Assembly: GCA_036984305.1 (NCBI GenBank)
Contig: BQWY01000001.1
Location: 930,001-994,000, forward strand
From: Nitrospira sp.
GTDB taxonomy: Bacteria; Nitrospirota; Nitrospiria; Nitrospirales; Nitrospiraceae
Reading direction: 5' to 3'
DNA: 64,000 bases
Shown here: in pieces, positions 1,341 through 62,218 of the stretch
How the letters are laid out: each line of letters begins with the position of its first letter
How positions within the stretch are numbered: position 1 is the stretch's first letter
Notes under the pieces: model-generated
Databases searched by the model: none
Told to the model about the DNA's origin: nothing
What the model saw: only the letters and a program-made list of their open reading frames with translations
Position numbers and translations under genes: made by a program

Positions 1341-2210
1341 ATGCCGGTTGAGCAAGCGCCGCTCCTTGTGACACAAGGGTTGGCGCGGACGCTCTTGAAG
1401 CTATACGCCTACCCCGATCCGCGACGGCCAGGCCGATTGATTCGCGGTTATGACTGCCCACACGCCTTGCGGACCGCCCGTATGTGTGCGGCGCTGGCCC
1501 TGCGGCTTGGGTATACGCCCAGGCACGTCCGACAATTTCAAATCGCGTGCCTTTTGCACGACCTGGGGCGGGCCGGACTCGATTGGCGGTTGTTTGGGTC
1601 GATCTGGTCCTGGGCCCGGCGTCACGGTATCCCTACCAGGCCAGCGGAGTGGCGAGCGGTGTATCCCCGGACTCCAGAGGGGCGGGAAACCGAGGCTTTT
1701 TTGGCGCAATTTCGTCATCGCCTGGAGACGGATGGCATTGCAATGGATGCGTGGGCCTGCGAGCAGGTCGAGATGCGCCTCGGCTATGCGAGGCGGTTGA
1801 CTCGCCGCCTCCGCGTGCTTCGCCCCAGGTTGCGCAAACTCCGTCTCGACTGGAGCGGATGGATGGAGCGCATCATGCTGTATTACTACTACCCGGATCG
1901 ATTGAATGATGCGCCGGGCTGGGTCCGCCAACTAGCTGAAATTCTCGTAGCGTGCGAACAGTTCGAGGCGCATAGCAACCGCCGGCGCGGTCGGGACTAC
2001 TATGCGCGCGCGACGGAATCTTTGTCGGAGGCCTTCGCGTATTTGAGCAAGCTCGAGCAGAAGGGCACGGTCAGCCGGTCCGTCGTGACTACGGTTCGCG
2101 AGTTGGTGGTTGAAGGAGCCTTTGACACGGTCATTCACCAAGCCAGGGGACGGTCGGTGTCGTCTCGGGAACGCGCCGTACTCCGAGCCGGAATGGAACA
2201 GGAGACGTGA
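1341..2210 (+). CDS. HD-domain protein
   Basis: A 289-residue protein with an N-terminal HD-type metal-dependent phosphohydrolase signature: His41 in the DCPHALR segment, then His73-Asp74 in LLHDLGR. Spacing and surrounding residues resemble HD-GYP and related nucleotide phosphohydrolases, but a GYP motif is not evident, so cyclic-di-GMP hydrolysis cannot be claimed. The C-terminal half is basic and helical. No signal peptide or membrane segment is seen, so it is probably cytosolic. Its stop overlaps the start of the next gene (ATGA at 2207-2213 region), so it is co-translated with the YjbQ protein and the HtrA-like protease. Confidence 0.75.
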   Translation: MPVEQAPLLVTQGLARTLLKLYAYPDPRRPGRLIRGYDCPHALRTARMCAALALRLGYTPRHVRQFQIACLLHDLGRAGLDWRLFGSIWSWARRHGIPTRPAEWRAVYPRTPEGRETEAFLAQFRHRLETDGIAMDAWACEQVEMRLGYARRLTRRLRVLRPRLRKLRLDWSGWMERIMLYYYYPDRLNDAPGWVRQLAEILVACEQFEAHSNRRRGRDYYARATESLSEAFAYLSKLEQKGTVSRSVVTTVRELVVEGAFDTVIHQARGRSVSSRERAVLRAGMEQET

Positions 2211-2632
2211 TGTCGGTCAAGACAGTGCCGCTCCACGTGCGCATGGAAGGGCAAACCCGGTTTGAAAACATCACCGCGTCGGTCGAGGCGGCGGTATCAG
2301 GTTCGGGTCTGCACAACGGGCTCGTCACCGTGTTTGCCAAGCACACCACCGCATCTGTTCTGATCGTCGAAGATGAGCCGGGGGTACGCGCCGATACGAA
2401 GGCCCTATGGGAACAACTTGTTCCAGCCCATCCTCACTGGCAGCATAATCAGCGGAATCCGGGCGAAGACAATGCCCACAGCCATCTCCGGGGGCAGCTC
2501 CAGGGTCCCTCGACTATCATCCCGTTTTCAGGCGGCAAGCTGCTGCTCGGGACTTGGCAGCAAATCGTGCTGCTCGACTTTGACACAAGGGCTCGGCAGC
2601 GCGAGCTCGTGATCCAGATTCTGGGTGAATAA
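2210..2632 (+). CDS. YjbQ/UPF0047 family protein (secondary thiamine-phosphate synthase type)
   Basis: A 140-residue protein of the YjbQ (UPF0047) family. Family hallmarks visible are the VFAKHTTASVLIVEDEPGV region and the conserved His/Asn-rich stretch before HSHLRGQLQGPS. Members have weak thiamine-phosphate synthase activity in vitro, but their physiological role is unsettled. GGAG at 2201-2204 supports the ATG at 2210; a GTG lies one codon earlier. The stop overlaps the GTG of the protease gene by 8 bases, so the three genes from 1341 to 3770 form one transcription unit. Confidence 0.85.
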   Translation: MSVKTVPLHVRMEGQTRFENITASVEAAVSGSGLHNGLVTVFAKHTTASVLIVEDEPGVRADTKALWEQLVPAHPHWQHNQRNPGEDNAHSHLRGQLQGPSTIIPFSGGKLLLGTWQQIVLLDFDTRARQRELVIQILGE

Positions 2633-3770
2633 GGTGCGCGGATGTAGCTTGCGGACCGCGGGACTCGTTTCATTGGGCATGGGCCTCGGACTACTGTGCG
2701 GGTCAGTTGTGTCTGAGGCCAAAGATGAGTGGGGTCGTCCACTGGGCGCTGCCCATGTGGGTCCGGAAATTCACCCTCGTCCGGTCAAGCCCTCATCCGA
2801 ACTCGGTGCAGACGAAAAGGAGACGATTGCGATCTTCGACCGGGCCGCGAGGTCTGTCGTCTTTATTACGAACACGTCGATTCGGAGCGATCCTTGGTCG
2901 TTCAACGAATTCGAGGTTCCTCAGGGGTCCGGATCCGGTTTCGTCTGGAACAAACAGGGTCATGTCGTTACGAACTTCCATGTCGTATATGGAGCGGATA
3001 CGATCACGGTCATCCTGTCGGAACGGGCGAAGTACCGGGCGCGCGTGGTGGGTGTCGACCCAGACCACGATCTGGCCGTGCTTCAGATTCAAGCGCCGGA
3101 AGAACAGCTAGACCCGCTTCCGATCGGGACGTCGCAAGACGTACGGGTCGGACAAAAAGTTTTGGCGATCGGTAATCCGTTTGGGCTGGATCATACCCTT
3201 ACGACCGGCATCGTGAGTGCGCTTGGTCGCACGATCAAATCGTTGACGCAGCGTACGATCGAGGGCGTCATCCAAACAGACGCGGCAATTAATCCAGGGA
3301 ACTCCGGGGGGCCACTCCTGGACAGCGGGGGACGGTTGATCGGCATCAACACGCAAATCGTGAGCCCCAGCGGGACCTATGCGGGGATCGGGTTTGCTGT
3401 GCCGGTCGACACCGTGAACCGGATCGTGCCGGAGCTGATTAAGTATGGAAAGGTCATTCGTCCCGGGCTCGGCGTATCCCTCATCCCCGATCAAATCGCT
3501 CGGCGGTGGGGTATCAAAGGGGTCATTATCGGGCGAGTGACCAGCGGAAGTGCGGCGGAGCGTGCCGGTCTCCACGGGACCAAGGAAACCTTCACGGGAC
3601 GTATTGAGTTGGGCGATATTGTCGTGGCCATCGATGGCAAACCGGTGGTCGTCTTGGACGATTTCATGGGAGCGCTAGAGCGGCATGAGGTTGGCGATCG
3701 CGTCACGCTGGATGTGATACGCGGGAATAATCAGCATCGCATCGCCGTCACTCTTCAAGCGGTGAATTAG
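2625..3770 (+). CDS. HtrA/DegP-type serine protease with one PDZ domain
   Basis: A 381-residue exported trypsin-like protease of the HtrA family, expected to act in periplasmic protein quality control. A signal peptide covers about residues 1-32. The catalytic triad is visible as His119 (VVTNFHV), Asp149 (DPDHDLAVL) and Ser227 (GNSGGPLL). A single C-terminal PDZ domain spans about residues 275-380, containing the substrate-loop region and LGDIVVAIDG. With one PDZ it resembles DegS or short HtrA proteins rather than two-PDZ DegP, but it has a cleavable-looking signal rather than an obvious permanent anchor. The start is GTG at 2625 inside the end of the yjbQ-like gene, implying translational coupling. 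Confidence 0.9.
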   Translation: MNKVRGCSLRTAGLVSLGMGLGLLCGSVVSEAKDEWGRPLGAAHVGPEIHPRPVKPSSELGADEKETIAIFDRAARSVVFITNTSIRSDPWSFNEFEVPQGSGSGFVWNKQGHVVTNFHVVYGADTITVILSERAKYRARVVGVDPDHDLAVLQIQAPEEQLDPLPIGTSQDVRVGQKVLAIGNPFGLDHTLTTGIVSALGRTIKSLTQRTIEGVIQTDAAINPGNSGGPLLDSGGRLIGINTQIVSPSGTYAGIGFAVPVDTVNRIVPELIKYGKVIRPGLGVSLIPDQIARRWGIKGVIIGRVTSGSAAERAGLHGTKETFTGRIELGDIVVAIDGKPVVVLDDFMGALERHEVGDRVTLDVIRGNNQHRIAVTLQAVN

Positions 3771-4052
3771 CGCCGTTCTCACACTGCGAGCGTGGGTGAC
3801 AATTTTGACATTCAGTCGCGGCTCCCCCGACACTTTCTTTGTTGGCCGCAAGAATAGATTCAGTCTTTCCATTGGCCGATTTCGGCAGGCGCTTCGTGCG
3901 ATAAACCAATGAGTCCAATGACAGGGTTCTACACGACGCCGGAACGACCCCGGAGGTCTCGAAGTCCGGTCATTGGCTCAAGAGTGCACGCGTTCTCCCA
4001 CGTTGCTATAGGGGCGGATGGCCGAGTAAGATCAGCGTAAGGAGCACATCCG

Positions 4053-5834
4053 ATGGGGGATCACCACCAGCCTAATGACAAGAAAGACCGAAGAGCGGAC
4101 CGTGATAACCCGCAAGGGTTTGAGGGGGACCGGTCCCCTGGAGAGTCCGATCGAACACGCCATGAGCGCGGTGCCTTTACCGATCCTGTAGCGCTCCTGG
4201 ACGAATGCCTCGCCGAGTTTTCAGACGACGATCCTCGCCGTCGCATCCTGTATAAATTACGCCACGCGGTGTTGCAAGGTTCTGTGCGTCTGCAAGAACG
4301 CGAGGCAGAGCTCAATAAACTTCAGAGCGTAGTCGAGAAACTCACCGCTCCGGCCAATCGAATCGGGATCCTGCTGGAGCTTCCGGAGGAAGGGTTGGCA
4401 CGTATTGCCGTCGGAGGCGCCGAATATTTCACCAATGTCGATCCGCGTGTCGGCGTGGCGGACCTCAAGCTCGGCACGCAAGTCTTGGTCAACGAGGCCT
4501 TCGCGGTCATCCGAACGATCGGGTTCGATCGAAACGGGCCGGTCTTTCGCGTGGCAGAAGCCATGCCCGATGGGAGGTTACGATTTGAGTCTGAGCCTGG
4601 CCGTCAGGCCCTCATCGTGTTGCGTGCGACCGATTTGGCCGAAGTGGAACTGAAGCCGGGCGACGAAGTTCGGGTCGATCCCTCGCATCGCTTTGCGATC
4701 GAACGGATGGATGAGCGGAAGTCGAAACGTCATGTGTTGGACGACGTGCCATCGGTCACATGGGAACAGATCGGCGGGCAGAGGGAGGCCATCGACGCCA
4801 TCAGAAAAGCCATCGAATATCCGCTGGTGCATGCTGAGACGTTTGCCAAATACCAGTTCACCCAGCCAAAGGGGTTCTTGCTCTATGGGCCGCCCGGGTG
4901 CGGCAAAACGCTCATCGGGCAGGCGGCAGCCTCGAGTCTCTCCAAACTCGTTGCTGAGGCCGGCCTGTGGGAAGGAGAGCGCACGCCGATTACCTCGGGC
5001 GCATTTCTCCACGTCAAGGGCCCGGAGATTCTCAACATGTGGCTGGGAGAATCCGAGCGGATCGTCCGGGATTTGTTCGCGCAAGCGCGTGCTCGCCGGA
5101 GCGAAGGTGCCTTGCCGTTCATCTTTATCGACGAAGCGGAGTCAATACTGGGCACCCGTCGGGCCATGCGCGCATTCAACATTACGAATACTCTGGTTCC
5201 GATGTTTTGTTCGGAGATGGATGGGATCGAGTCGTTGCGGGACGTCGTGATCATTCTGGCGTCGAATCGTCCGGACTTGATCGATCCTGCCGTTCTGCGG
5301 CCTGGTCGCATCGATCGCAAAATCAAGGTGCAGCGGCCGAGCCGGGATGGGGCTGAGGAGATCTTGAAGGTGTATCTGACGGAGGAGCTGCCCTACGACG
5401 GGACGTTGCTCTCGGCGCATGGAGGCGATCCATCGCGTGTCAGACATTTTCTGGTCGAACGGCTCCTTCACGCCCTTTTCCGTCGAAACGACGAAAGCCG
5501 GATTCTTGGGGTCCGATTGCGGAATGGACAGACCAAGACGCTCTATCGAGGAGATTTGTTGAGTGGGGCCATTCTTGCCTCGATCGTCCAACGGGCAAAA
5601 GAACAGGCTATCGATCGGGTCATTCGGGGAGGAGACCGCTCCGCAGGGCTCCGGGAAGAGGATCTGATCGAAGCCCTCGAGGCAGAATTTCGGGAGGGTG
5701 AGGTCCTGCCACCGGATGATGCGGCTGAGGAATGGCTCAAGTTACTCGATCATCATCCTGAACAAGTCGTCGGCGTGTCGTCGTATCGTAGTGGGCGACT
5801 ACACGCGGAGCGGTCGATCACTCAGATCATTTGA
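4053..5834 (+). CDS. arc: Proteasome-associated AAA ATPase ARC/Mpa
   Basis: A 593-residue ring-forming ATPase that recognises and unfolds tagged substrates and feeds them to the 20S-type proteasome. An acidic, charged N-terminal tail precedes a coiled coil at about residues 65-95, followed by OB-type beta domains (about 100-230) and an AAA module. Walker A is GPPGCGKT at residues 279-286, and Walker B ends in Asp360-Glu361 (FIFIDEAES). An arginine-finger region follows (RPGRIDRKI). The C-terminus ends in Ile-Ile and lacks the GQYL-type tail with which actinobacterial Mpa docks on the core particle. An AAGGAG site precedes the ATG. It is the first gene of the proteasome locus, 84 bp before dop. 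Confidence 0.95.
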   Translation: MGDHHQPNDKKDRRADRDNPQGFEGDRSPGESDRTRHERGAFTDPVALLDECLAEFSDDDPRRRILYKLRHAVLQGSVRLQEREAELNKLQSVVEKLTAPANRIGILLELPEEGLARIAVGGAEYFTNVDPRVGVADLKLGTQVLVNEAFAVIRTIGFDRNGPVFRVAEAMPDGRLRFESEPGRQALIVLRATDLAEVELKPGDEVRVDPSHRFAIERMDERKSKRHVLDDVPSVTWEQIGGQREAIDAIRKAIEYPLVHAETFAKYQFTQPKGFLLYGPPGCGKTLIGQAAASSLSKLVAEAGLWEGERTPITSGAFLHVKGPEILNMWLGESERIVRDLFAQARARRSEGALPFIFIDEAESILGTRRAMRAFNITNTLVPMFCSEMDGIESLRDVVIILASNRPDLIDPAVLRPGRIDRKIKVQRPSRDGAEEILKVYLTEELPYDGTLLSAHGGDPSRVRHFLVERLLHALFRRNDESRILGVRLRNGQTKTLYRGDLLSGAILASIVQRAKEQAIDRVIRGGDRSAGLREEDLIEALEAEFREGEVLPPDDAAEEWLKLLDHHPEQVVGVSSYRSGRLHAERSITQII

Positions 5835-53070: not shown

Positions 53071-53464
53071 GGAGATGGTCGGGTGGTTGCCGGTCGGCAC
53101 AAGCCGGCTGGAGGAAAGTCCGGACTCCCAGGGTAGGGTGCTGGGTAACGCCCAGGCGGAGCGATCCGACACAAGCGCCACAGAGAACAGACCGCCGATG
53201 GCTTGCGTATGCGAGCTCAGGCAAGGGTGAAACGGTGGGGTAAGAGCCCACCGCGGAGGTGGCGACATCTCCGGCACGGCAAGCGTCGCCCGGAGCAAGA
53301 TCAAATAGGGGGACGATCGCGCCTCGAACGCGACTAGGCTGGCCCGGCCGAGGTCCTCGGGTAGGTCGCTCGAGCGGCGCGGTAACGCGCCGCCTAGAGA
53401 AATGATCACCCTCGCCCGGGTGAGAAGCCCAGGCGGGACAGAATCCGGCTTATAGACCGTCTCC
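53071..53464 (+). ncRNA. rnpB: RNase P RNA (rnpB), bacterial type A
   Basis: The catalytic RNA that trims tRNA 5' leaders. The 5' GGAGATGGTC (53071-53080) pairs with GACCGTCTCC (53455-53464) to form the P1 helix, giving a gene of about 394 nt. Universal elements are visible: GAGGAAAGTCCGGACTCC (near 53110), ACAGAGAACAGACCGCC, GGTAAGAGCCCACCGC, the conserved AGAGAAATGATCACC near 53396-53409, and ACAGAATCCGGCTTATAGACC at the 3' end. The 3' end overlaps the glutaredoxin-like gene on the opposite strand. Confidence 0.95.
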
Positions 53465-53717
53465 ACCGCGCTTTTCTGCTTAAGCGCTCGATCTGTCGCC
53501 GTAACTCGTTTTCGCTGACCTTTCCGCGACAAGCTTCCATTCCTTCGACCAAGACGACCGGAATGGATTCCCCATATCTGTGTTGCCAGTCTGGACGTGT
53601 GTCGACATCCTGTTTATCGATGAAGAGGTCCAGGTCTCCTTGCAGGCGGCGGGCCATTCTCTCCACCACGGAGCACAGATGGCAATCTGAGCGGGACAAG
53701 ATTGTGACACGTGTCAT
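53406..53717 (-). CDS. Glutaredoxin-like thioredoxin-fold protein
   Basis: A 103-residue protein of the glutaredoxin-like (DUF836) group. The redox motif CHLC lies in LSRSDCHLCSVVERMARRL near residue 10, followed by the cis-Pro loop region ESIPVVLVEG. The C-terminus is basic (Arg-rich) and overlaps the 3' 59 bp of rnpB in antisense; translation may end late because of that constraint. The ATG at 53717 is the family start; an upstream ATG adds ten residues. Function is probably thiol-disulfide exchange, substrate unknown. Confidence 0.8.
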   Translation of the reverse strand: MTRVTILSRSDCHLCSVVERMARRLQGDLDLFIDKQDVDTRPDWQHRYGESIPVVLVEGMEACRGKVSENELRRQIERLSRKARWRRSISRILSRLGFSPGRG

Positions 53718-53948
53718 TTGGCTCAAGGTTGGCATTGGAATAGACAATATGGGACCTTACCATGGCAAAACGACGATTGGGAGTCCAGGTGAGAACGGAA
53801 GGCCATATTGACCCTGGCCTGGATGAATGGTACTATCCACATCCTTAAACTCCCATTATTTCAAAAGGTTTCGAGCCATCGGCAACTCACCAGCCCGACT
53901 GCGTCCCGTTGAGCGTCGGGGTGTCGCGCTGACTGGGGAGGAGTAGCA

Positions 53949-55724
53949 ATGAAACTCACAGGGGCGGAGATCTTCATAGAGTGTTTGAAACGTGAGGGTG
54001 TGAAGACAATTTTCGCATTGCCTGGCGGTGTCGTCCTCAAAATCTTCGACATGTTGCATCAGCAGAAGGATGTCGAGGTGGTGTTGGCTCGGCATGAGCA
54101 GGGAGCCGGGCACATGGCCGAAGGCTACGCCAAGGCCACGGGCAAGGCTGGGGTGTGCCTGGTGACCTCGGGGCCGGGCATGACGAATGTCATTACTGCG
54201 TTGGCGGATGCCTATATGGATTCGGTCCCCGTTGTCTGCTTCAGCGGTCAGGTGCCGACCAGCTTGATCGGGAATGATGCCTTCCAGGAGGCGGACAACG
54301 TCGGGTTGAGCCGCCCCTGCACCAAGTATAACTTCCTGGTCAAGGACGTGAATGACTTGGCCGTCACGATCAAGGAAGCATTTTATATCGCCACCACCGG
54401 ACGTCCAGGGCCGGTCTTGGTCGATATCCCCAAGGACGTATCGATGAACAAGGCCGAGTTCCATTACCCGTCCTCGGTGTCAATCCGCGGCTATAACCCG
54501 ACCTATGACGGGAACAAGTGGCAAATCAAGCAGGCGGCGGAGGCCCTTTCGAAGGCGAGGAAGCCTATTCTCTATGTCGGCGGGGGAGCGGTCTTTTCCG
54601 GGGCGTCCAAGGAACTGATTGAATTGGCAGAATTGACCCAGATCCCAGTAGACATGACGCTGATGGGGCTGGGGGCCTTCCCGGGTGAACATCCGCTCTC
54701 AATGGGAATGCTGGGCATGCACGGGACCTATTGGGCCAACATGGCGATGCACTATTCCGACCTGGTCATTGCCGTCGGCGCCCGGTTCGACGACAGGGTG
54801 ACGGGGAAGGTGTCGGAGTTTTGTCCGGGAGCCAAGATCATCCATATCGACATTGATCCAACGTCGATCCGCAAGAATATCCATGTGGATATTCCCATCG
54901 TGGGAGACTGCAAGCGCGTCTTGCAGGAATTGAATCAGATGCTGCGGGCCACTGTAAATGGGGAACAGAAAGCCCTGAGGAAACCCTGGTGGGAGCAAAT
55001 CAAGGAATGGCAGCGGGCGCACCCGCTGAGCTACGAACAGGATCTCAATGGCAAGATCAAGCCTCAGCACGTGATCAAGCGGCTGTATGAGCTGACCAAA
55101 GACCGCGATCCGATCGTCTCAACCGATGTCGGGCAGCATCAAATGTGGACGGCGCAGTATTTTAAGCTGGCAAAGCCGAATCGGTGGCTTACTTCCGGGG
55201 GCCTCGGCACCATGGGGTTTGGATTTCCTGCTGCCATGGGTGCACAGGCGGCCTTCCGTGACCGGCTCGTCCTGTGCGTGGCCGGCGATGGAAGCGTCCA
55301 AATGAACACGCAAGAATTGGCCACGGCGGTCGCACATCGTTTGCCAGTTAAAATTATCGTGATTAATAATGGCTTTCATGGAATGGTCCGGCAGTGGCAG
55401 GACCTGTTTTATGACGGACGGTATGCGTGTAGCGACCTCGGTACATCGCCTGACTTCGTCAAGTTGGCCGAAGCCTATGGAGCCGTTGGCCTCCGGGCGT
55501 CGAAGGTTTCCGACCTCGATAATGCCATCCGGGAAATGATCTCGATTGATAAACCAGTGATTCTGGATGTGCCCGTCTTTCCGTTCGAGAATTGCTACCC
55601 GATGATTCCAGCGGGCGGGTGCAATCATGAAATGCTGTTGAGCGATACGCCCGAGTTGAAGAAGAAGATGGAGTCGGCGGGGAAGGTTACGCCGGAAGAT
55701 AAGGATACCGTCCTGACGGCCTAG
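53949..55724 (+). CDS. ilvB: Acetolactate synthase, large (catalytic) subunit
   Basis: A 591-residue TPP- and FAD-dependent enzyme making acetolactate or acetohydroxybutyrate for valine, isoleucine and leucine. The catalytic Glu is in VLARHEQGAGHMAEG. The TPP/Mg motif is GDGSVQMNTQELATA with VINNGFHGMVRQWQ downstream. The FAD-binding middle domain is at about 195-340 (VGARFDDRVTG). A GGGGAGGAG site precedes the ATG. It is followed by its regulatory subunit and ilvC. Confidence 0.97.
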   Translation: MKLTGAEIFIECLKREGVKTIFALPGGVVLKIFDMLHQQKDVEVVLARHEQGAGHMAEGYAKATGKAGVCLVTSGPGMTNVITALADAYMDSVPVVCFSGQVPTSLIGNDAFQEADNVGLSRPCTKYNFLVKDVNDLAVTIKEAFYIATTGRPGPVLVDIPKDVSMNKAEFHYPSSVSIRGYNPTYDGNKWQIKQAAEALSKARKPILYVGGGAVFSGASKELIELAELTQIPVDMTLMGLGAFPGEHPLSMGMLGMHGTYWANMAMHYSDLVIAVGARFDDRVTGKVSEFCPGAKIIHIDIDPTSIRKNIHVDIPIVGDCKRVLQELNQMLRATVNGEQKALRKPWWEQIKEWQRAHPLSYEQDLNGKIKPQHVIKRLYELTKDRDPIVSTDVGQHQMWTAQYFKLAKPNRWLTSGGLGTMGFGFPAAMGAQAAFRDRLVLCVAGDGSVQMNTQELATAVAHRLPVKIIVINNGFHGMVRQWQDLFYDGRYACSDLGTSPDFVKLAEAYGAVGLRASKVSDLDNAIREMISIDKPVILDVPVFPFENCYPMIPAGGCNHEMLLSDTPELKKKMESAGKVTPEDKDTVLTA

Positions 55725-55805
55725 GGGGAAAACGCAAGCCCTGAGTGCTCAGTGCCGAGCGCACGGGAATGACCGAGTGAGCACCAGGACCTACTACTGA
55801 CAGCT

Positions 55806-57408
<1,603 letters not shown>

Positions 57409-57412
57409 ACCT

Positions 57413-58063
57413 ATGGCGGATCGTGCCGTCGGTGTGCCCATCGTTAAGGAGGGTGTTCCCTTTGTCGGCGCGGCTGCAGCCGCGACGCTCGCAATGTGGG
57501 CTGTGGGCTGGGCCTTCCCGACCTGCGTCTTCGGAGGGGTTACGGCCTTTACGGCCTGGTTTTTTCGAAACCCGGCCAGGCGGATTCCGACCCAGGCGCA
57601 GGCCGTCGTCGCGCCCGGCGATGGCAAAGTTATTGCCATCGAGCGGGAATTCGAACCCCGATACCTCAAGGATCAAAGCATTCGAATCAGCATTTTCCTG
57701 AACGTATTCGACGTGCATGTCAATCGAATTCCCTGTGCAGGAACCATTCAAAACGTCATTTATCAACCGGGGAAGTTCGTCCCGGCGAATAAACCGGCGG
57801 CGACCGTCCAAAATGAGCAAAATGCTATCTGCTTGCAAACGCAGCAGGGTGCTAAGATTCTATGTGTACAGGTCGCGGGGTTGATCGCGCGCCGTATTGT
57901 CTCGTGGGTCACCCCGGGGGATCGAGTAACGACGGGCGAGCGGTACGGTCTCATTCGATTCGGTTCGCGTATGGACTTGTATGTGCCGATAGGGAGCAAG
58001 ATAGGTGTGGTCGCCGGACAGCGTGTCAAAGGCGGTGAAACCATTGTTGCGGAGTTGATCTGA
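57413..58063 (+). CDS. psd: Phosphatidylserine decarboxylase proenzyme, short form
   Basis: A 216-residue decarboxylase that makes phosphatidylethanolamine in the membrane. Two N-terminal hydrophobic segments (about 15-50). The autocatalytic Gly-Ser cleavage site is in RFGSRMDLY near the C-terminus, where the Ser becomes the pyruvoyl cofactor. The core VNRIPCAGTI and the compact size fit the short (archaeal-type) family. pssA starts 3 bp after its stop, forming a lipid-synthesis pair. Confidence 0.95.
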   Translation: MADRAVGVPIVKEGVPFVGAAAAATLAMWAVGWAFPTCVFGGVTAFTAWFFRNPARRIPTQAQAVVAPGDGKVIAIEREFEPRYLKDQSIRISIFLNVFDVHVNRIPCAGTIQNVIYQPGKFVPANKPAATVQNEQNAICLQTQQGAKILCVQVAGLIARRIVSWVTPGDRVTTGERYGLIRFGSRMDLYVPIGSKIGVVAGQRVKGGETIVAELI

Positions 58064-58065
58064 CT

Positions 58066-58854
58066 ATGGCGATGCGCGGAGTCCTCTCAAAAACCGAACG
58101 CCGGAAAGCCGTCTACCTGATTCCCAACACCCTCACGACTGGCAACCTGTTCTGCGGTCTGTATGCCGTGTTGTCCGTATACGAAAGCAACCATCTGCAT
58201 GCGGCCTATGCAGTCCTTGTGGCACTGATTTTCGACATGCTTGATGGCAAGTCCGCTCGTTGGGTCAAAGGGACAAGTCAGTTCGGTCTGGAATACGACT
58301 CCCTGGCGGATGTGGTTTCGTTTGGCGTCGCGCCGGGATTTTTGATTTATGCGTGGGCGCTCCAAGGCCAGGGGATGTTGGGGGCCGCCGTCATGTTCGC
58401 TTTCGTCGCCTGTGGCGCGCTCCGGCTCGCTCGGTTCAACGTGATCTCCACCGCCTCGGAAAGCCGGTATTTCATGGGCTTGCCGATTCCGGCCGCGGCC
58501 AGCGTGGTCGCGACGATGGTTGTGTTCGACGCCCATATCGCCAACCTCGGCCAAGAGATGAAACCTGTCGTGATCCTGATCATGACGCTGGTCCTGGCCT
58601 TTCTGATGGTGAGCACCCTGAAATATCGAAGCTTCAAGGATCTCAAATTCAAGGGATGGCGCGGGTTTAACTATCTGGTGTGGATCGTCCTTGCTCTCAT
58701 GTTGGTCGCCGCGTGGCCGCAGGTCATGCTCTTTGTCGTGTGTGCCGGCTATGCGCTGTCGGCGGTGGTCGTCCGATTGGCCAAGCTCGCGGCGGGCCCA
58801 TTTGCGAAGCCGGCTGGCAAAGTGCCGCCTACTTTGGTAGATTCGAAGCCGTAA
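58066..58854 (+). CDS. pssA: CDP-diacylglycerol--serine O-phosphatidyltransferase
   Basis: A 262-residue integral membrane enzyme making phosphatidylserine, which Psd then decarboxylates. The CDP-alcohol phosphotransferase motif D-x2-DG-x2-AR-x8-G-x3-D-x3-D is clear in DMLDGKSARWVKGTSQFGLEYDSLAD. Several transmembrane helices follow. The last gene before the T-box leader. Confidence 0.96.
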   Translation: MAMRGVLSKTERRKAVYLIPNTLTTGNLFCGLYAVLSVYESNHLHAAYAVLVALIFDMLDGKSARWVKGTSQFGLEYDSLADVVSFGVAPGFLIYAWALQGQGMLGAAVMFAFVACGALRLARFNVISTASESRYFMGLPIPAAASVVATMVVFDAHIANLGQEMKPVVILIMTLVLAFLMVSTLKYRSFKDLKFKGWRGFNYLVWIVLALMLVAAWPQVMLFVVCAGYALSAVVVRLAKLAAGPFAKPAGKVPPTLVDSKP

Positions 58855-59112
58855 CGGCGTTGACGAGGAGTAGTAGGTCTTCCTGACCTCATCGAGAGAG
58901 CTGGTGGGTGGTGCGAACCAGCGAGGCAGGCCCCGAACTCGCCTCCGAGCCGGATTCGTGAAGTTGAGTAGCGAATCCCGTCTTCCCACGTTACGGGAGC
59001 AATGAAGGATGCTGATGCTCAGCTACGAGCATGGCATCGAAACAGGGTGGTACCACGGAGCGCTCTGAAGATGAGCCTTCGTCCCTGACCGGAGGGGCGA
59101 AGGCTTTTGTGT
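58855..59112 (+). promoter_or_regulatory. Leucine-specifier T-box leader of leuA
   Basis: A tRNA-sensing leader. The conserved T-box core AGGGTGGTACCACGG is at 59044-59058, with the NCCA-binding bulge TGGT at 59048-59051. Stem I contains the AG-bulge and distal loop GGTGCGA at 58910-58916 inside a CTGGT/ACCAG stem, and GAACTCGCC near 58936-58944, in which CTC (58939-58941) is the likely specifier codon (Leu). A hairpin GGATTCG/CGAATCC at 58953-58979 follows. Uncharged tRNA-Leu should stabilise the antiterminator and allow leuA expression. The terminator alternative lies at 59074-59108. Confidence 0.88.
59074..59112 (+). terminator. Intrinsic terminator of the T-box leader
   Basis: AGCCTTCG pairs with CGAAGGCT, extended by CCC/GGG, and is followed by TTTTGTGTTT. 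Its 5' arm is close after the T-box core, so it is expected to be mutually exclusive with the antiterminator. Confidence 0.85.
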
Positions 59113-59130
59113 TTCTAGGGGAGAATGGCC

Positions 59131-60684
59131 ATGGATACTACACGCATGATACGTATTTTCGATACGACGTTACGCGATGGCGAACAGTCGCCGGGGGCCA
59201 GCATGAACGTCGAAGAGAAGCTCATGGTTGCCAAGCAGCTGGCCCGGCTCGGGGTGGACGTGATCGAAGCGGGATTTGCGTTCAGCTCCCCAGGCGACTT
59301 CGAAGCGGTGCGCCGCATCGCGCAGGAGGTGGAAGGGTCCACCATCTGCAGCCTGGCTCGGGCGCGCCCGGAGGACATTGACCGGGCCTGGGAAGCCTTG
59401 AAAGGCGGAGCCAAAGTCCGCATTCACACCTTTTTGTCGACGTCCGACATTCATTTGAAACACCAGTTTAGGATGACGCGCACGGAGGCTCTGAAACGGG
59501 CTGCGGACATGGTCGCGCGCGCGCGCGGGTATGTCGAAGATGTGGAGTTCTCACCGATGGATGCGAGCCGGTCCGACCCGGCGTATCTGTACGAGGTGAT
59601 CGAGGCGGTGATCGCGGCTGGAGCTGGGACCGTCAATATTCCAGATACGGTCGGGTATGCCGTACCATGGGAGTTCGGGCAACTGATCCGAGGGATCAAA
59701 GAGAAGGTGCGAAACAGTGACCAGGCTGTCATCTCGGTCCATTGCCACAATGATCTGGGTTTGGCCGTAGCCAATTCGTTGGCCGCTATTCGAGAGGGTG
59801 CCGGGCAGGTGGAATGTACGATCAACGGGATTGGCGAACGTGCGGGAAACACCTCGCTGGAAGAAGTGGTCATGGGCTTGCGGACACGCAAGGCTTTTTA
59901 CGGGGCGGATACCAGGTTGAATACCGAAGAGATCATGAAGACGAGCCGTTTGGTCAGCAAGATCACCGGCATGATCGTCCAGCCGAACAAAGCCATTGTG
60001 GGCGCCAATGCCTTTGCGCATGCGTCAGGCATTCACCAAGATGGGTTGCTCAAAGACAAGACCACGTATGAAATCATGCGGCCCGAATCAATTGGGCTGG
60101 TGGACAGCAAGATGGTCATGGGCAAGCTGTCGGGGCGCCATGCGTTTCGCCAACGCCTGGAAGAACTTGGGTACCGGTTGACCGACGAGGAGATCAATCA
60201 CGCGTTCGAGCGATTCAAGAAGCTGGCCGATCAGAAGAAAGAATTGTTCGAGGAAGATTTGGAAAGTATCGTCTCAGACGAATTGGCCAAATTATCTGAG
60301 CGCGTGGTGCTTCGCTCCCTGCGGATCGAGAGTGGCACTAGCAAGCTGCCGACCGCCAGTTTGGAATTAGATATCGATGGCGTCGTAGTTGCCCAAACGG
60401 GGCATGGGGATGGTCCTGTGGACGCCGTATTTCGCACGTTGGCCGCGATGACCGGGACGAAAGCCAAACTGCTCATGTACGCCGTGAAGGCGATTACAGG
60501 AGGAACCGACGCGCAAGGAGAGGTATCCGTCCGGCTCGAGGAAAACGGGCGGGTGGTGTCCGGTCACGGGGCCGATACCGACATTATTGTCGCCTCGGCT
60601 CGCGCCTACTTGAACGCCGTCAACAAACTCGCCTATTGGGCGGCTAAGGACGCGGCCGGGCTCCAGAAGGTCAGCTTGATTTAG
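59131..60684 (+). CDS. leuA: 2-isopropylmalate synthase
   Basis: A 517-residue enzyme of the first leucine-specific step, condensing acetyl-CoA with 2-oxoisovalerate. FDTTLRDGEQSPG is the N-terminal metal-binding motif; HCHNDLGLAVANSLAAI and the GIGERAGNTSLEEVVM motif follow. The C-terminal regulatory (LeuA dimerisation) domain spans about 390-515 and would mediate leucine feedback. AGGGGAG at 59117-59123 places ATG 59131 at the right distance; the ATG at 59125 is too close. The T-box adds transcriptional control. Confidence 0.97.
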   Translation: MDTTRMIRIFDTTLRDGEQSPGASMNVEEKLMVAKQLARLGVDVIEAGFAFSSPGDFEAVRRIAQEVEGSTICSLARARPEDIDRAWEALKGGAKVRIHTFLSTSDIHLKHQFRMTRTEALKRAADMVARARGYVEDVEFSPMDASRSDPAYLYEVIEAVIAAGAGTVNIPDTVGYAVPWEFGQLIRGIKEKVRNSDQAVISVHCHNDLGLAVANSLAAIREGAGQVECTINGIGERAGNTSLEEVVMGLRTRKAFYGADTRLNTEEIMKTSRLVSKITGMIVQPNKAIVGANAFAHASGIHQDGLLKDKTTYEIMRPESIGLVDSKMVMGKLSGRHAFRQRLEELGYRLTDEEINHAFERFKKLADQKKELFEEDLESIVSDELAKLSERVVLRSLRIESGTSKLPTASLELDIDGVVVAQTGHGDGPVDAVFRTLAAMTGTKAKLLMYAVKAITGGTDAQGEVSVRLEENGRVVSGHGADTDIIVASARAYLNAVNKLAYWAAKDAAGLQKVSLI

Positions 60685-60729: not shown

Positions 60730-61092
60730 ATGTTGAGGCTCGGTCTTGAGGATCGGCCGGAATTTCTCGCCGGTGACCATACCAAACTGCGAGAACTCCT
60801 CCACCCCGCCAAGCATGACCTCAAACTGGGCTACAGCTTGGCGTACGGCACGCTCGGTCCACAGCAACGCAGCAAGTGGCATCGATTGACGTCGTCGGAG
60901 GTCTACTACTTTATTGCCGGCTCGGGAGAGTTTCTCATCGACAATGATTCCAGTTTCATTGCCGCTGGCTCCGTCGTCTACGTCCCGCCGGGTGCCAAGC
61001 AAAGCGTGGTCAATACGGCTTCGGAGGACCTCCAGTTCCTCTGTCTGGTTGATCCGGCTTGGCGGATCGAGGACGAGGAGGTGCTCGAGTGA
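60730..61092 (+). CDS. Cupin-domain protein
   Basis: A 120-residue single-domain cupin. The first motif reads KWHRLTSSEVYYFIAGSGEFLID (H in KWHRL, E in SEVYY) and the second has GSVVYVPPGAKQSVVN, where the usual His is replaced by Lys or Gln. It is soluble and of unknown function. Placed between leuA and leuB, on the same strand with short gaps (45 and 49 bp), so it is probably co-expressed; any role in leucine synthesis is unproven. Confidence 0.85.
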   Translation: MLRLGLEDRPEFLAGDHTKLRELLHPAKHDLKLGYSLAYGTLGPQQRSKWHRLTSSEVYYFIAGSGEFLIDNDSSFIAAGSVVYVPPGAKQSVVNTASEDLQFLCLVDPAWRIEDEEVLE

Positions 61093-61141: not shown

Positions 61142-62218
61142 ATGAAGGCAAAGATTGCCGTGCTGGCGGGTGACGGGGTCGGACGCGAGGTTGTGCCCGA
61201 AGCGGTGAAAGTTCTCAGGGCAGTGGGCGAGAAGTTCGGGCATACGTTTGCGTTCTCTTCGGCCGATGTCGGGGGGCAAGCGATCGACAAGATCGGCGTG
61301 CCGCTGCCACAGGAGACGCTGACAATTGCCAAACAAAGCGATGCCGTGTTGCTTGGCGCGGTCGGGGGACCGAAGTGGGAAGGACTGGACTACAGCTTGC
61401 GTCCGGAGCGTGCCTTGCTGGGGCTTCGTGAACATCTTGGGCTGTATGCCAACCTCCGTCCGGCGAAACTCTATAGTGCCCTCGCCGATGCCTCCACCCT
61501 GAAACGAGAGGTCATCGACGGCATCGACATGTTGGTCATACGTGAGCTGATCGGAGGTATTTACTTCGGAAAACCCAAGGGTATCGAGAAAACCGCCACC
61601 GGAGAGCGGGGGGTCAATACGGAGGTGTACACGACCGAGGAGATTCGGCGCATCGCGAAGGTCGCGTTCGAGGCCGCCCGCAAGCGACGGAAGAAGGTCA
61701 TGTCGGTAGACAAAGCGAACGTGCTCGAGTCCTCCGAACTTTGGCGTCGCGTGGTGACGGACGTTCAGCAAGGTTATCCTGACGTCGAACTGAGCCATAT
61801 CTATGTCGACAACTGCGCGATGCAGTTGGTGCGTCAGCCCCGGCAGTTCGATGTGTTGCTGTGCAATAACATGTTCGGGGACATTCTGAGCGATGAGGCC
61901 GCCATGCTGACCGGCTCGATCGGTATGCTCCCGTCGGCCAGCCTTGGGGCGCAGGTCGGACTATTCGAGCCGATTCACGGAAGTGCGCCCGATATTGCCG
62001 GGAAGGGAGTCGCCAATCCGATCGCCACGATCGCATCCGTTGGAATGATGCTGTCGTATAGTTTTCAGCTGGAGAAGGAAGCCGCGGCGATCGAGACAGC
62101 CATCGTTCGAACGCTGGATTTGGGCATCCGCACGAAAGATATCGTGGCGCCGGGTGGACGCGCCGTTGGGACGGTCGAGATGGGCGACGCGATCGTCCGT
62201 AACCTCATGGCCTCGTAG
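61142..62218 (+). CDS. leuB: 3-isopropylmalate dehydrogenase
   Basis: A 358-residue NAD-dependent enzyme, third step of leucine synthesis. [16 protein letters not shown] at the start, the [15 protein letters not shown] segment, and the metal-site [28 protein letters not shown] are diagnostic, with [16 protein letters not shown] near the end. leuC and leuD are not in this window. Confidence 0.98.

Follow-up and report, generated by a model that had tools for sequence, protein, structure and literature searches.

T-boxes upstream of leuA were described in Geobacter sulfurreducens and Pelobacter carbinolicus in 2008 (PMC2494555), and the G. metallireducens genome paper predicted its leuA T-box to sense tRNA-Leu(GAG) (PMC2700814). 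The ilv-leu leader of Bacillus subtilis is also a leucine T-box with a transcription terminator, but it governs a single ilvBNC-leuABCD operon (PMC12452182), and in Staphylococcus aureus a leucine-rich leader peptide, in a leader that is only loosely T-box-like, stands before ilvD where B. subtilis has a T-box (PMC5794164). As for the architecture of these RNAs, the tip of stem I is said to be generally required by transcriptional T-boxes (PMC7583486), most members of classes III and IV are described as controlling translation, and T-boxes without stem II are described as glycine-specific (PMC10482949).

Here we consider the leader of leuA in a Nitrospira sp. genome (GCA_036984305.1), within a window of 64,000 nucleotides, the whole stretch of DNA that was analysed (contig BQWY01000001.1, positions 930,001 to 994,000). 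Like the leaders of Geobacter and Pelobacter it precedes leuA outside the Gram-positives, in another phylum (PMC2494555, PMC2700814); unlike B. subtilis ilv-leu it is internal, following pssA, and would act solely on leuA onward. The S. aureus ilvD attenuator, in contrast, stands at an operon start in a different phylum, and the window keeps its T-box (PMC5794164). We found no description of a Nitrospira T-box in the literature searched, which lacks most subscription journals. The leuA T-box is a known kind of RNA in a known gene pairing, in a phylum for which we found no paper on it. That it lies outside the usual Firmicutes/Actinobacteria range, offered as a surprise in the original prediction, is weak as a novelty, since the Geobacter and Pelobacter leuA T-boxes are published and the standard Rfam model detects the Nitrospira leader above its cut-off.

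Results

A full-length class I leucine T-box precedes leuA

When the window was scanned with cmscan for every family of Rfam 15, a T-box (RF00230) was identified ahead of leuA at 104.8 bits (gathering cut-off 93, E 4.5e-22), a match that runs the full length of the model (1-219 of 219) and is the only RF00230 match in the 4.35 Mb genome. The gap between the pssA stop and the leuA start is 270 bp, and the T-box core, GGTGCGA loop, CTC specifier and terminator that the original prediction placed there are all present; its boundaries of 58855-59112 are accurate to a few bases, and the covariance-model search that it named as a check bore out that a member of the Nitrospirota carries a leucine T-box on leuA (Table 1). 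The core AGGGUGGUACCACGG is accompanied by every other expected T-box part, including the long stem I with AG bulge and GGUGCGA loop and the stem II with a GAA/AGUA S-turn that characterise class I.

Table 1. Features of the leuA leader, its genes and related leaders (window positions, unless another locus is named)
Feature	Position	Strand	Basis
ilvB-ilvN-ilvC-psd-pssA, upstream operon	53949..58854	+	ORFs; pssA stop 58852-58854
Complete leucine T-box leader with terminator	58851..59115	+	Rfam RF00230 58851-59089; terminator scan 59073-59106
Stem I	58857..58950	+	Rfam alignment, sequence
AGUAGUA of stem I	58869-58875	+	Rfam alignment, sequence
AG bulge region GAGAGAG, stem I	58894-58900	+	Rfam alignment, sequence
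Distal loop GGUGCGA, stem I	58910-58916	+	Rfam alignment, sequence
Specifier CUC (Leu), GAA before, purine (G) after	58938..58940	+	sequence
Stem II	58953..58977	+	Rfam alignment
S-turn motifs of stem II	GAA 58960-58962, AGUA 58967-58970	+	Rfam alignment
Possible stem IIA/B pseudoknot-like element, CGU/ACG and UUCCC/GGGAG	58979..58999	+	IIA: Rfam alignment; IIB: complementarity from sequence alone
Stem III, GATGC/GCATC, inner ATGCTC/GAGCAT	59008..59038	+	complementarity in sequence
T-box core AGGGTGGTACCACGG	59044-59058	+	sequence
Antiterminator: AGGG, UGGU bulge, ACGGAG paired with CCTTCGT, then CCCT	59044..59086	+	Rfam alignment; fold
UGGU bulge matching tRNA ACCA end	59048-59051	+	Rfam alignment
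Intrinsic terminator and T-rich tract	59073..59115 (stem about 59073-59106)	+	terminator scan; fold
leuA, 2-isopropylmalate synthase, controlled gene	59125..60684	+	ORFs
Cupin-like ORF after leuA	60730-61092	+	ORFs
leuB, followed by an NHL-repeat-like ORF and asd	61142-62218	+	ORFs
f14 leucine T-box without stem II, L121	about 3000-3226	+	
f14 leucine T-box without stem II, L124	about 2151-2373	-	

The specifier is a leucine codon, in agreement with the leuA gene downstream (gene names at leuA and beyond were read off the translations). Among the five leucine tRNAs located in the genome with RF00005 and ARAGORN, one carries the anticodon GAG (G000:C1, about 153225-153305); its 3' end, ...GGCACCA with discriminator A, fits the UGGU bulge. 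Conservation of the specifier in relatives, the point on which the prediction had staked itself, held up: CUC is kept in the listed Nitrospiraceae leuA loci with the exceptions of L013 and L017, where CUG implies tRNA-Leu(CAG) and leucine identity is kept. A count of three CTG specifiers was rejected as an artefact of the search pattern, which had caught a later GAACTGACC in the linker.

A probable attenuator within the operon

Stem I begins 2 bases past the pssA stop, and a scan of 58000-59200 with the sigma-70 consensus found no promoter-like site on the + strand, although Nitrospira promoters may differ from that consensus; a promoter-like site does lie ahead of ilvB, at 53808-53836. From this spacing and the missing promoter match we infer that the leader is best read as an attenuator inside one operon, not as the start of a separate leuA transcript. 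The statement that the T-box splits ilvBNC-psd-pssA from leuA is correct as anatomy, but on this reading it would not mean a division into separate transcripts. The alternative, that the T-box has its own promoter within the end of pssA, which would make leuA a transcription unit of its own, draws on the f8 relatives, where the sequence directly upstream of the T-box reads as a sigma-70-like promoter (TTGACA, 17-18 bases, CATAAT or TATCAT) in 6/6 genomes; against it stand the same 2-base spacing and empty scan in the window, and we consider it unlikely here.

Wherever a fetched T-box locus kept its flanking genes, the T-box has pssA on one side and leuA on the other, across several families of the phylum; leuA itself is 80-85% conserved within Nitrospira. 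No psd was detected in locus L122, and in L131 (about 3287-4452, - strand) three similar small ORFs with repeated IRARYN C-termini separate pssA from the T-box. In the window, a bacterial RNase P RNA of class A (284 bits) is found at 53071-53468, upstream of ilvB.

The leader is conserved and its two folds are mutually exclusive

Across the phylum, 94/295 Nitrospirota genomes have a T-box match at E up to 0.001. Every one of the 79 sampled Nitrospiraceae genomes has exactly one, so that no member of the family is without it among the matches listed, and the UGGU bulge is present in 80/80 leuA loci of Nitrospira-type genomes, gathered by a separate protein search. N. moscoviensis (L035) shares this leader. 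In L125 (about 3000-3180) a large insertion within stem I separates the AGUA motif from the AG bulge/distal loop.

The 5' arm of the terminator is the 3' arm of the antiterminator, with the strand 59076-59085 common to both, and folds and covariation alike indicate that the two structures are mutually exclusive. The terminator segment has a folding energy of -30.9 kcal/mol (z = -3.7 relative to dinucleotide shuffles), and the antiterminator folds 2.7 standard deviations better than shuffles. Over 33 sequences, 97.2% of terminator cells are paired and four pairs show double, compensatory changes, a number matched in 7/500 shuffles and 0 slid controls; the covariation score of the terminator is higher than in any of the 500 shuffles or any slid control. 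The antiterminator, at 99.7% of cells paired, is too conserved for much pair covariation. The apical arm of stem I also covaries in relatives (for example GCUGGU/ACCAGC, GCCGGC/GCCGGU and GUUGGC/GCCAAU).

These observations leave little room for two further readings. That the T-box is a non-functional relic, the terminator alone acting, might be suggested by its absence from families f2, f3 and f40, but with all motifs intact, compensatory changes in the terminator and the stem I arm, a specifier change that is synonymous and retention in all of the sampled Nitrospiraceae, we regard it as very improbable; and translational control through an antisequestrator, known from actinobacterial T-boxes (PMC1262725, PMC7583486), is scarcely credible for a leader in which a T-rich tract follows the competing hairpin and the ribosome site of leuA is not part of that hairpin. 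We are highly confident that the leuA leader is a canonical T-box of class I, specific for leucine, which works by terminating transcription within the ilvBNC-psd-pssA-leuA operon and controls leuA and the genes that follow.

Variant T-boxes in relatives

In the order that contains f8 (L160-L165), 6/6 T-boxes have only 19-29 bases from the start of the AGUAG motif to the specifier GAA. Their stem I closes as a short hairpin without the GGUGNRA loop of the elbow-binding tip, while stem II and the terminator are kept. They score 68-86 bits, below the Rfam cut-off, and would thus be missed by annotation at that cut-off. In architecture these elements, unlike the leader of the window, resemble class IV T-boxes such as that of Actinomyces ileS (PMC10482949); their specifier is nonetheless one for leucine and they finish with a transcription terminator, whereas classes III and IV are reported to act mostly on translation.

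A different change is seen in two f14 genomes, L121 and L124, where stem I is complete, only 57-58 bases separate specifier and core, and the motifs of stem II are absent; other f14 genomes retain the longer form.

Probable loss of the T-box and a candidate replacement in f2

Three sister families within the order of the Nitrospiraceae, f2, f3 and f40, have the same operon without the T-box: a search of their pssA-leuA regions against the Rfam families found none. A single weak hit to a snoRNA model in these gaps, below its cut-off, was rejected as chance. In the IlvC tree, the three families are placed around the Nitrospiraceae, and T-box carriers are found within that set as well as beyond it (midpoint root; support for the Nitrospiraceae modest, 82/83), and on that topology loss of the T-box in f2, f3 and f40 appears to be the simpler reading.

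In many f2 gaps a terminator is still present, for example AGCCTTCGTCCC...GGGAGGAAGGCTTTTTT. Against a model made from the 3' part of the T-box, most of these gaps score 22-33 bits (E about 1e-6 to 1e-3), L158 and L172 more weakly, and in the 64 kb of the window this model matches the T-box alone. As judged from sequence, the f2 terminator is likely homologous to that of the T-box, with the proviso that terminators can converge. Other members of f2 have gaps of about 40-70 bases, in which both the T-box and the terminator are missing.

Ahead of the terminator, many f2 genomes have an ORF of about 31 codons, MDQWQGKGRGTLLLGDAVLTLADLLKTAVSP being one example, that starts 1-6 bases after pssA and usually contains 7 or more leucines; dN is below dS in nearly all pairs, which are of related genomes and not independent. 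The leucines are clustered, the maximum count per 6 codons averaging 2.8 versus 1.25 in shuffles; shuffled locus by locus, few leaders are individually significant, and it is the conservation across genomes that carries weight. In one f2 group (L146, L147, L150, L182, L183) an ATCGGG directly after the leucine-containing ORF could base-pair with CCCGAT of the terminator arm, the kind of pairing that leader-peptide attenuation requires; in the larger f2 group no clear antiterminator pairing was seen. The combination of leucine-rich short ORF and T-box-like terminator, with the T-box missing, is observed at L140, L144, L146, L147, L150, L152, L168, L169, L172-L174, L177, L178, L182 and L183.

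Together the ORF and terminator suggest that the f2 leaders are candidate leader-peptide attenuators that may have replaced the T-box, and in this they resemble the leader of S. aureus ilvD (PMC5794164).

Discussion

For the class I leader of the window, a general pathway for the control of leuA can be proposed. Consider RNA polymerase coming from the ilvB side, which would read through from upstream and transcribe the leader. Where tRNA-Leu(GAG) is uncharged, base pairs would form between its anticodon and the CUC specifier, and between its free ACCA end and the UGGU bulge; the tRNA so bound would stabilise the antiterminator, allowing the polymerase to proceed into leuA. Where tRNA-Leu is charged, its free end would be blocked, the terminator would form and transcription would end after pssA. 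The leucine-only step would in this way be set by the supply of leucine, and the upstream genes for the shared branched-chain steps and for phospholipids would not be stopped.

Taken across the phylum, the leuA leader of Nitrospirota may represent a series in which a riboswitch has been remodelled and replaced in place: class I in the Nitrospiraceae, without the tip in one order, without stem II in two genomes, and in f2 leucine-rich leader-peptide attenuation, with the terminator arm of the former T-box retained. Each form would occupy the same site between pssA and leuA. We judge the case for such a series to be evenly balanced. If our readings of the f8-order and f14 relatives are true, these are exceptions to the rule that transcriptional T-boxes generally need the stem I tip and to the rule that only glycine T-boxes lack stem II; and if that of f2 is true, a sensor of tRNA has been swapped for a sensor of the ribosome, with the terminator retained. 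The leader in the window gives a confident regulatory annotation of leucine synthesis in an environmentally important family of nitrifiers.
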